IMG/VR virus record: IMGVR_UViG_3300002460_000608
Span: 1 to 29,382 of that record
DNA length: 29,382 nucleotides
From: a virus
Strand: one strand, 5' to 3'
Position numbers and translations under genes: made by a program. Below are positions 2,601 to 24,588 of the stretch, piece after piece (positions within the stretch are counted from its first letter, which is position 1; each line of letters opens with the position of its first letter). The notes under the pieces are model-generated. The model did no database searches. It saw only the letters and a program-made list of their open reading frames with translations, and was not told the DNA's origin.

Positions 2601-2675
2601 ATGCAGACATTAGGGAGCTTGCATACCTTGACAACAAATTTGGCCAAGCAAGCTAAAAAAGGAGAAACAAAATGA
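2601..2675 (+). CDS. possible 24-residue leader peptide before the Acb2-like gene
   Basis: ATG at 2601 with GGGTGA about 7 bases upstream. It encodes MQTLGSLHTLTTNLAKQAKK and four more residues, then ends in a TGA that overlaps the Acb2-like start as ATGA. The exact stop/start overlap is the only strong support; the same DNA also contains the left arm of the inverted repeat at 2640-2653. It may be a coupling leader rather than a functional peptide. Confidence 0.3.
   Translation: MQTLGSLHTLTTNLAKQAKKGETK
2640..2653 (+). repeat. left arm of 14-bp perfect inverted repeat
   Basis: TTGGCCAAGCAAGC here is the exact reverse complement of GCTTGCTTGGCCAA at 2976-2989. The arms sit just outside the Acb2-like gene. 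They could pair in the mRNA around the whole coding region, or mark a small inserted cassette. Confidence 0.85.
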
Positions 2676-2968
2676 TTCAAAATACAAGTGACGATCCAAT
2701 AAAACGTGATCAAGTGCGACTAGATCAGGTGATGGGTTCGATAGGATGTCCTCGTCCTAAAACGATTCAAGAGGATATAGATAATAGATTCACCTATCGT
2801 CCTCCAACGCAGTTTCAGTCTGAAAGGTACATTCAAATTCGAGGACTCGCTAAGAGTCTTGCGTATTTGGTTGCCTCATTAACACCAGAGAACCGAGAAC
2901 AATCTCTGTCGATTACTCATATTCAGGAAGCTGTATTTTGGGCAAATGCGGCAATAGCGCGTAACTAA
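2672..2968 (+). CDS. Acb2/Tad1-type hairpin-domain protein, putative anti-CBASS/anti-Thoeris nucleotide sponge
   Basis: 98 residues, ATG preceded by AAAAAAGGAG. Residues 39-98 match the conserved pattern I know from the Acb2/Tad1 hairpin family (DUF7681-type): RFTYRPP at 39-45, ERYIQIRGLAKSLA at 51-64, NREQSLSITHIQEAV at 74-88 and the hallmark FWANAAIARN at 89-98. In characterised phages, Acb2 proteins form helical oligomers that bind cyclic di- and trinucleotide signals and so block CBASS, and in some cases Thoeris. The N-terminal 38 residues are more variable. It probably acts in the cytoplasm early in infection. The family assignment is from memory of the pattern; ligand preference cannot be read from the sequence. 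It is flanked by a 14-bp inverted repeat. Confidence 0.85.
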   Translation: MIQNTSDDPIKRDQVRLDQVMGSIGCPRPKTIQEDIDNRFTYRPPTQFQSERYIQIRGLAKSLAYLVASLTPENREQSLSITHIQEAVFWANAAIARN

Positions 2969-3184: not shown

Positions 3185-3355
3185 ATGAATGAGAAAATAG
3201 TAACCCGCATCGAAGTTCGTAAAGGCCGGTCTGGTTCTTGGTATTGGAGATTGATTGCTCGCAATGGTGAGATACTCGGGCATAGCGAGAGTTACAGTTC
3301 CTTGTCCAAAGCAAAAAAGACGGCTAATCAAGTGGCTAGGCAGTTGGGGATATAA
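3185..3355 (+). CDS. DUF1508/YegP-like small protein
   Basis: 56 residues, ATG at 3185 after AGGGGGC. The pattern IEVRKGRSGSWYWRLIARNG, then E-I-L-G-H-S-E-S-Y-S-S, then SKAKKTANQV is that of the DUF1508 (YegP) fold: W-x-W-R-L-x-A-x-N-G-E-x-I-x-x-S-E-x-Y-x-S. The unit is a small beta-alpha domain of unknown biochemical function. This protein is about one DUF1508 repeat long. The stop overlaps the next start as TAATG at 3353-3357. Confidence 0.75.
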   Translation: MNEKIVTRIEVRKGRSGSWYWRLIARNGEILGHSESYSSLSKAKKTANQVARQLGI

Positions 3356-22011: not shown

Positions 22012-22400
22012 GATATTAAATCCTTATATTCTTCATAATCCCTAATATAATCAGACTCATCAAACGGATGGCTTGCTAGACCAACTAGAATAGTGTCTCT
22101 GGATTGATAGAACTGAGAAGACCAAACCATTGGGGGAATATATAGACCAATATTATCAGATGAACTGATGCAAAACTTCCTCTCACTTTCTAAGTTATCA
22201 CAAATAATATCCACGCTTCCTTTGATACAAATAAGAAGTTGTTTACATTTCTTATGAGCATGATGTCCCCGAATATAGCTAGGCTTTACCATGGAAACAT
22301 AAAATATTCTCTTTACGTCAAATGGTGTCTCTAAAAATGAGATATCTCCATTCATTTCACTTATATAATTTATCTTAATCAACTCAACATTATTAATCAT
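22008..22400 (-). CDS. FdtA/WxcM-like dTDP-4-oxo-6-deoxyhexose 3,4-ketoisomerase
   Basis: 130 residues, cupin fold. IRGHHAHKKCKQLLICIKGS at 43-62 carries the family's R-G-x-H-A-H-K motif, with R44, H47 and H49 as likely active-site residues. YIPPMVWSS is the second cupin half. FdtA-type enzymes move the keto group of dTDP-4-oxo-6-deoxyglucose from C4 to C3, making the substrate for a 3-aminotransferase. The neighbouring gene encodes just such an aminotransferase and overlaps by 4 bp. Confidence 0.83.
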   Translation of the reverse strand: MINNVELIKINYISEMNGDISFLETPFDVKRIFYVSMVKPSYIRGHHAHKKCKQLLICIKGSVDIICDNLESERKFCISSSDNIGLYIPPMVWSSQFYQSRDTILVGLASHPFDESDYIRDYEEYKDLIS

Positions 22401-23407
22401 AACTCCACCTGTGGATACATTGGTAAGGACAAAACTTGCTTTGAAGCAAGCTCTGTATATTTCATGCTTCCCGAGACTCTAACTAAATCACGATAGGCGG
22501 GTTGTTTATGTATTGGGACTGGATAATGAATTGCTGTTTTGATTCCCCTATCTTTTAAATATTTAATTTTACTTTCCCTATTCCTACATTTTATTACATA
22601 TAAATGATGGACTGAATCTTCATCACAAGTTCCATAAGATTTAGCAATATCCCTCCGCCTGTTATTATCAATATCCAAATATTTGAGTTTAACATTTAGG
22701 ATTGCGGCCTGTATCTCATCCAACCTGGAGTTATACCCATGAATCTCACTTACATACCGCTTCTTCCATCCATATTGACGGAGCAATAGAAGCTTCTCAT
22801 ACAGCTTCTTACTATTGGTCGTGATGGCTCCTCCATCTCCAAAGCACCCGAGATTCTTCGTTGGATAAAAACTAAAACAACCAATGGTTCCGATACTACC
22901 AACCTTCTCTTGATTAATTTCAGCTCCAGTTGATTGAGCGCAATCCTCAATTACATGAAGTCTATTCTTCTTTGCTATTAATTTAATCTCATCCATATTG
23001 CATGGTTTGCCATATAAATGCACTGGCAATATTGCCTTGGTTTTATGTGAAATAGCTTTCCCTATATTCTTTGGGTCTATATTAAAACCTCTCTGTTCAA
23101 TATCTACTAATACTGGCATTGCACCAGTCATAATAATTGCAGAAACTGTAGCCACCGCAGTATGAGATACAGTTATAACCTCATCACCACTACCAATTCC
23201 CAATGCTTTCATACCAAGCCATAATGCATCTGTTCCGCTGGCAACCCCAACAGCATGTTGAACCCCTATGTATTTTGAGAAGTTAGATTCAAACTTTCTA
23301 ACCTCATCCCCCAATATATAAGAGCCACTATCCAGCACCTTTTGAATTGCCGAATCTATCTGATACTTATGTTCTAAATATGAGGCTTTGGGATCAGATA
23401 GCTTCAT
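22397..23407 (-). CDS. DegT/DnrJ/EryC1 PLP sugar aminotransferase (FdtB-like)
   Basis: 336 residues from the ATG at 23407, which overlaps the upstream stop (TGATG); an in-frame upstream start would run into the previous gene. Family motifs: SGSYILGDEVRKFE at 27-40, VASGTDAL at 55-62, HVIEDCAQSTGA at 151-162 and the PLP lysine in SFYPTKNLG (K184). GYNSRLDEIQAA follows at 224-235. Next to FdtA, the likely reaction is 3-amination of dTDP-3-keto-6-deoxyhexose (Fuc3N/Qui3N type). It is somewhat short: a segment after about residue 258 and the extreme C-terminus look trimmed compared with the usual 360-370 residues. Confidence 0.85.
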   Translation of the reverse strand: MKLSDPKASYLEHKYQIDSAIQKVLDSGSYILGDEVRKFESNFSKYIGVQHAVGVASGTDALWLGMKALGIGSGDEVITVSHTAVATVSAIIMTGAMPVLVDIEQRGFNIDPKNIGKAISHKTKAILPVHLYGKPCNMDEIKLIAKKNRLHVIEDCAQSTGAEINQEKVGSIGTIGCFSFYPTKNLGCFGDGGAITTNSKKLYEKLLLLRQYGWKKRYVSEIHGYNSRLDEIQAAILNVKLKYLDIDNNRRRDIAKSYGTCDEDSVHHLYVIKCRNRESKIKYLKDRGIKTAIHYPVPIHKQPAYRDLVRVSGSMKYTELASKQVLSLPMYPQVEL

Positions 23408-24588
23408 CAAAGTATGGCAACCTTCGGAACATAAGATATCCATTTACCTGTATATCCGGCTTCTTTCTCCATTATTTCTTTAGAATGATTCCAAGCAAAC
23501 AGTAATGTGTGGGAAGGAGGATTATCTAACCACTCCTGATATGGCTTAATTGGAATGTGAGAACCCGGACTAAACTTACCCTGCTTGATTGGGGTTGTGT
23601 CACAGATGTAGTCAATTAAGTTGTGGCGAATGCCGCAGTAATTGGTGATAGTCGCACTCTTAGCGGTTGCCGCATATCCAACAACTTGATGTCCTTTAGA
23701 CTTTATCTTAAGAATAAGATTTACTAATTTGTTTCTTGATTTCTCAACATTATCCTTAAAGTTCTCATAGGTTTCTTGTTTATGAAAATTATTAATTTTC
23801 TCTTTTACTAACATGAAATTAACAAATTTATTTATCTTATACATTCCACTATGAGCTACTGTATACCTCATAGACCCGCCATGAGTTTTTTGAGGATGGA
23901 CATCTATAATTTCCATATCATGCTGATTAAGTAGATAACTTAGCGAAGTAATACTAAAATAAAAAGCATGTTCATCATAGATTTGGTCATACGAGGTCTT
24001 ATCCAAGATATCTCCTAAGTATGGATCTTCAAAGATTAATACCCCATCATACTTCAATAAATTCTTAACCCCTCTCAATACAGAATGTAAATCTGGAATA
24101 TGAGCCATAACATTAGCCGATAGAATTACGTCGACTTTCCTTGTATTCTGAATATTTCCATCAAAAAAAGCTGAAATTGTATTAACTCCATTTTGTCTAG
24201 CAATGGTCGCTACATTCTCAGATGGTTCAAAACCAAGGTGTTCTATTCCTCTACTTGCAAAATGCTTCAATAGAATTCCATCATTGCTACCTATTTCAAC
24301 AACAAACTTTGGTTGATAGCGGTCAATTACATCATTAGCAAACTTCTCAAAGTGATTAGCCATGTGCTTAGAAGATGATGAGTAGAATGCATAGTTCTCA
24401 TGAAACATTTGGGAACGATCTGGTTGATCTGTAAGTTGAACCATGAAGCATTTGGTACAGAAAGCAACCTTCATGTCAAAGAAGTATTCATCCTTAAACT
24501 CAGACTCATGGAGGAATCCATTGGCGATAGGCTGCTTGCCAAAGTCAATGAATGGGGAGATTGGATTAGAACATATCATACATTTCAT
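23407..24588 (-). CDS. NDP-hexose C-methyltransferase (TylC3/NovU-like)
   Basis: 393 residues with the three-part layout of this family. A zinc-binding N-terminus (C3, C6, C44, C47, with GKQPIANGFL between) is followed by a SAM domain with motif I FVVEIGSNDGILL at about 95-107. The catalytic-type YDEHAFYFS comes next, and then a C-terminal Methyltransf_14-like domain with VVGYAATAKSATITNYCG. Relatives such as TylC3 and NovU add a C-methyl branch at C3 or C5 of deoxysugars. It overlaps GT2 upstream (ATGA) and the aminotransferase downstream, so it is part of the same sugar pathway. Confidence 0.86.
   Translation of the reverse strand: MKCMICSNPISPFIDFGKQPIANGFLHESEFKDEYFFDMKVAFCTKCFMVQLTDQPDRSQMFHENYAFYSSSSKHMANHFEKFANDVIDRYQPKFVVEIGSNDGILLKHFASRGIEHLGFEPSENVATIARQNGVNTISAFFDGNIQNTRKVDVILSANVMAHIPDLHSVLRGVKNLLKYDGVLIFEDPYLGDILDKTSYDQIYDEHAFYFSITSLSYLLNQHDMEIIDVHPQKTHGGSMRYTVAHSGMYKINKFVNFMLVKEKINNFHKQETYENFKDNVEKSRNKLVNLILKIKSKGHQVVGYAATAKSATITNYCGIRHNLIDYICDTTPIKQGKFSPGSHIPIKPYQEWLDNPPSHTLLFAWNHSKEIMEKEAGYTGKWISYVPKVAIL

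Follow-up and report, generated by a model that had tools for sequence, protein, structure and literature searches.

A 98-residue phage protein, encoded at positions 2672-2968 (plus strand) of the window analysed here (29,382 nucleotides, part of a virus record of 30,685 bases in which a gene for the major head protein occupies the right end), is a firmly supported member of the Acb2/Tad1 hairpin family by sequence, and we consider it probable, from our analysis as a whole, that it serves as a homohexameric cyclic-oligonucleotide sponge acting against CBASS. Studied members of this family sequester the alarm nucleotides that trigger bacterial suicide in infection, and T4 Acb2 (Vs.4) is a proven cyclic-nucleotide sponge. 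Family membership is firm because the protein matches a curated profile, because T4 Acb2 lies on that same profile, and because the ligand residues are in register.

The gene and its surroundings

The hairpin gene is real. Its reading frame is intact and free of internal stops, translation confirms that it ends in FWANAAIARN as the first-pass annotation had read it, and a good ribosome-binding site (GGAG at 2661-2664, plus strand) is separated by a seven-base spacer from the start, the choice of which was scored. By Pfam limits and a structural model, the protein falls into two parts: an N-terminal extension of 40 residues (2672-2791), with helices predicted at residues 9-23 (low confidence) and 32-39, and a hairpin domain spanning residues 41-97 (2792-2962), with helices at 49-70 and 75-97.

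The plus-strand ORFs around the gene encode a DUF6745 protein, an unmatched product, a DUF4884 lipoprotein-like protein, two partly paralogous small proteins, products of 63 and 42 residues, and a DUF1508 protein. Of nine other ORFs scanned together with the hairpin protein, three passed the Pfam cut-off (DUF6745, DUF4884 and DUF1508), all of unknown function, which agrees with the earlier description of the gene as sitting among unexplained small genes. The further suggestion that these neighbours are anti-defence candidates found no backing: PADLOC matched none of the 10 proteins scanned, the hairpin protein included, and no profile match names an anti-defence family. Rfam and tRNA scans were empty.

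A conserved operon partner was also sought among relatives and rejected, as the commonest PHROG occurs in only 4 of 135 flanking ORFs, i.e. the nearest ORFs of at least 70 residues from 69 non-redundant viral loci, called mechanically, so that some of those in G+C-rich contigs are spurious. Of 267 flanking ORFs, 214 share the strand of the hairpin gene. The absence of a fixed neighbour suits an independent, freely moving accessory gene, and since this is what would be expected of such a gene, we count it in favor of the sponge reading.

Several features of this DNA are worth recording in their own right. A perfect 14-bp inverted repeat (TTGGCCAAGCAAGC), at 2640-2653 and 2976-2989, flanks the hairpin gene, with one arm in each intergenic gap. 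When this repeat was examined as a cassette boundary, a pair of this kind turned up in 15 of 300 shuffles of the window, and the 162 other family genes tested showed no repeat longer than 11 bp. At positions 1-288 a 12-bp unit is repeated 24 times in tandem, in frame with the DUF6745 protein (ORF 3-1001) and giving it a repetitive N-terminus. The small genes at 1803-2174 and 2164-2376 overlap, and their products have DxELEKR...VxxLRTxRDE in common (BLASTP E=7e-05), perhaps through internal duplication. Downstream of the hairpin gene, 3185-3355 encodes the DUF1508 protein of 56 residues; farther away, on the minus strand at 22397-24588, lie aminotransferase-like and methyltransferase-like genes, on the same strand as the major-head-protein gene.

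Family membership and residue register

The first-pass annotation had recognized an Acb2/Tad1 hairpin pattern in the C-terminal 60 residues, a length that proves right, and had proposed a profile search, and that search returns a clear match: residues 41-97 cover positions 1-58 of the 58 in PF24729 (Acb2_Tad1_hairpin) with E=7.4e-19 and 68.1 bits, against a curated cut-off of 27 bits. The profile phrog_1454, whose function is not annotated, matches residues 32-98 (E=3.9e-22), and both matches are far beyond chance; NCBIfam gave no match for the protein. T4 Acb2, with its sequence taken from the T4 record, likewise covers positions 1-58 of PF24729 (E=7.1e-20). All 111 members of our family alignment, A2, match PF24729; A2 comprises the 98-residue protein and 110 of 134 reference ORFs (the 24 kept out being mainly fusions and near duplicates), from a list that had already excluded hits with E above 1e-6 and cores more than 88% alike.

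Judged by sequence, the protein is a further member of a known and very widespread viral family. By tblastn, relatives occur in 181 of 50,697 phage records, every one below 60% identity, and relatives of T4 Acb2 occur in 1,199 of the same 50,697; megablast of window positions 1-25000 against the phage records found no match. With a nine-sequence profile, at least 557 relatives were confirmed among 600 IMG/VR stretches examined, as were 76 of 126 stretches from GTDB genomes, where the matches include, by title, Paenibacillus, Streptomyces, Mycolicibacterium and deltaproteobacterial records. In BFVD, "Acb2/Tad1 hairpin domain-containing protein" is already the name of many viral proteins, which head the structure search there. 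Mycobacterium phage Xandras gp101 is a 65-residue family member (E=5.1e-16) that has been described as a cyclic-nucleotide sequestering protein, although its authors call its role in mycobacteriophage infection unknown (PMC11953737); a similar annotation is in print for Microbacterium phage Statler (PMC13348362). Relatives have already been studied structurally, as "Acb2 homolog 43" shows. A search of mainly open literature for Acb2, Tad1 and the names of the family found no paper that names PF24729 and none that tests the short-hairpin branch.

In cyanophage S-2L (MW334946), two tail genes have between them a hairpin-family ORF that appears to lack an annotation (L006:2001-2210), and in phage records KT361654-KT361657 the hairpin ORF is covered by a feature labelled phosphomannomutase, probably in error.

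The register of the protein on the studied sponges was sought without gaps. When the family block 42-65 is slid along T4 Acb2, position 8 scores 9.1 and the next best -2.4; block 76-97 has its optimum at position 62 (38.7, next 8.3). On Acb2 of Pseudomonas phage p26, block 42-65 is best placed at position 11 (5.5, next -3.5), and the C-terminal block has no unambiguous placement without gaps, its optima shifting with the block limits. The register from T4 Acb2 to the 98-residue protein is therefore Tyr8 to Tyr42 (codon 2795-2797), Lys23 to Arg57 (2840-2842), Thr68 to Thr82 (2915-2917) and Phe82 to Ala96. Arg57 also corresponds to Lys26 of p26, which, together with Tyr11, binds dinucleotides in Pseudomonas Acb2; the places of both residues were read from the p26 chain. 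Published work on T4 Acb2 lists Tyr8 among the binding residues and describes stacking of Phe82 on the ligand (PMC12657218), and the mutants Y8A and T68M have been reported, with Tyr8 and Thr68 given as binding residues (PMC12657230). In other words, of the Acb2 dinucleotide-pocket set, Tyr8 and Thr68 have counterparts of the same kind in register, and the counterpart of Phe82 is an alanine.

Conservation can be read against this register. At position 42, 87 of 110 relatives have Tyr, 14 have Phe and 6 have His; Arg57, Glu76 and Asn92 are invariant (110 of 110), and Thr82 is kept in 103. The alanine at position 96 is found in 108 of the 110. Acb2 of p26 has alanine there too, so the loss of Phe82 need not abolish binding. 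The 98-residue protein keeps R57, R75, E76, T82, W90, N92 and R97 and departs at three near-invariant positions: R43 (His in 109 of 110), S80 (Ala in 103) and Q85 (Glu in 103). R43 is basic, as is the residue that follows the tyrosine in T4 Acb2 (K9) and p26 (R12).

The closest comparison is with the short-hairpin phage proteins of PF24729/phrog_1454 (e.g. Paenibacillus phage Pahemo gp73 and Xandras gp101), which have the whole hairpin in common with our protein at no more than 57% identity in A2, including the motif NRFTYHPP...IR...A...P.SREKSLA.T.LEEAVMWANAAIARN. Those used here are mostly 66-80 residues long, whereas the 98-residue protein has an N-terminal extension of its own, 40 residues long, in addition to R43, S80 and Q85. 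Like T4 Acb2, our protein matches PF24729 end to end; its hairpin turn is much shorter than that of Acb2, and where Acb2 has ACRAV it has the conserved ANAxIAR.

Among solved structures, a PDB search with the A2 family profile retrieved only Acb2 homolog 43 (9ptq, 1.4e-9; one entry, six chains) and Tad1 chains (0.0018 to 0.015), and a T4-type profile retrieved T4 Acb2 and p26. Direct comparison of profiles, against the T4-type alignment, confirms the C-terminal part alone, aligning no more than the last 27 columns (probability 87%). Homolog 43, the nearest solved sequence, has the REKS...TKLEEA motif in common with our protein and a basic Lys20 at the Arg57 position; it differs in having Thr at the Tyr42 position, and only its residues 2-59 of 76 align.

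Predicted fold, proposed mechanism and alternatives

An AlphaFold2 model built on the 111 sequences (pLDDT 85.4, with the block from residue 51 onward at 90-98) has two long antiparallel helices, as in the PF24729 hairpin, preceded by the short helix 32-39; Acb2 likewise consists of a short N-terminal helix and two long helices (PMC12043709, PMC10419184). The model contains no beta strand, its N-terminal 40 residues being of lower confidence. Foldseek against the PDB ranks T4 Acb2 first at E=2.4, with no match below 0.001, and VIA-align gives T4 Acb2 a Z of 7.2 (2.2 Å over 57 residues), tied with unrelated helical hairpins, Pseudomonas Acb2 6.8 and 6.6, and CbTad1 5.0. The predicted fold agrees with Acb2, and as a fold match alone it is weak and cannot carry the case.

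From the family, the register and the monomer fold we infer an oligomer, a ligand and an effect. Six copies of the protein would pack into a compact hexamer, in which Tyr42 would stack on the bases of cyclic dinucleotides and the invariant Arg57 would hold their phosphates where protomers meet head to head. The trimer interfaces, which in Acb2 and Tad1 hold cyclic trinucleotides, would be lined by the conserved second helix (R75, E76, T82, N92, with its motif common to Tad1). Made during infection, such a sponge would capture CBASS signals uncleaved and so keep the suicide effectors off. Counted against this proposal are the Foldseek E of 2.4, the tie of a Z of about 7 with unrelated hairpins, the alanine in place of Phe82, the threonine of homolog 43, the departures at R43, S80 and Q85, the profile alignment of only 27 columns and the ambiguous p26 register.

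What else might the protein do? It might be a hairpin-family protein that has drifted into a different role, such as binding another nucleotide or a host protein, with the motif reflecting fold and hexamer packing rather than signal binding. This we regard as rather unlikely. Invariance of R57, E76 and N92 across very different phages would be unusual for an arms-race protein, some members adjoin structural genes (in a Gordonia phage the gene follows that for the portal, and in cyanophage S-2L it is among the tail genes), and Phe82 is not kept; yet the neighbours are not conserved, the T4 Acb2 binding residues Tyr8 and Thr68 are retained in register, and the PDB entry of one relative calls it Acb2 homolog 43. 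A degenerate copy that has lost binding is the least probable reading of all, and a very improbable one: the three departures from near-invariant positions hint at it, but the frame is full length, the ribosome-binding site is good, the conserved residues listed above are kept, and R43 retains the basic character seen in T4 Acb2 and p26.

The first-pass annotation had left both anti-CBASS and anti-Thoeris functions open, and of this double assignment the hairpin family stands and anti-CBASS appears to fit better, while a gcADPR sponge that acts mainly against Thoeris, as Tad1 does, is improbable. With Tad1 our protein has in common the second-helix motif SRE...ALT..EEA.MW.N (E=0.0018), and CbTad1 does reach its Z of 5.0; the sequence match, however, is limited to that second helix (SRExxxALTxxEEAxMWxN). 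Tad1 has an N-terminal antiparallel beta sheet, and according to a review its N-terminal beta domain supplies loops to the gcADPR pocket (PMC12043709). Since the all-helical model of our protein has no such domain as a source of pocket loops, we judge the anti-Thoeris role less likely, and we rejected the protein as a Tad1 proper. A predicted beta domain does occur elsewhere in the family: Paenibacillus hairpin proteins at L091:5276-5638, L097:5833-6189 and L098:5839-6192 carry an N-terminal domain of about 55 residues with a predicted small beta fold. These longer proteins were examined as possible Tad1 members. The L091 model (3-sequence alignment, pLDDT 81) shows the N-terminal beta domain; in a weak second look Tad1 rows aligned only with the hairpin of these proteins, and Foldseek with the model found nothing below E=0.001, though the beta domain may yet be Tad1-like.

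A widespread hairpin and its caps

A 2024 preprint describes Acb2 as uncommon and confined to particular groups of phages (PMC11722364). By contrast, the hairpin branch is broad, as the counts given above indicate (181 of 50,697 phage records, 1,199 of 50,697 for T4 Acb2, and at least 557 IMG/VR stretches). Within the short-hairpin branch, N-terminal caps differ: the 98-residue protein has a predicted helical one of 40 residues, proteins from Paenibacillus genomes have a predicted beta domain, and other caps are PGDYG-like or zinc-ribbon-like. We tentatively suggest, as a possibility rather than an expectation, that the phrog_1454 short-hairpin branch might be a class of cyclic-oligonucleotide sponges that is very large and crosses phyla. 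In such a class the hairpin would suffice by itself for binding and assembly, perhaps with a preference for cyclic trinucleotides at trimer interfaces, and different N-terminal caps, gained repeatedly, would reset the ligand range. If binding occurs as predicted, phages of many host phyla would come equipped to counter cyclic-nucleotide immunity, and some bacteria could in turn sense the sponge through Panoptes-type systems.
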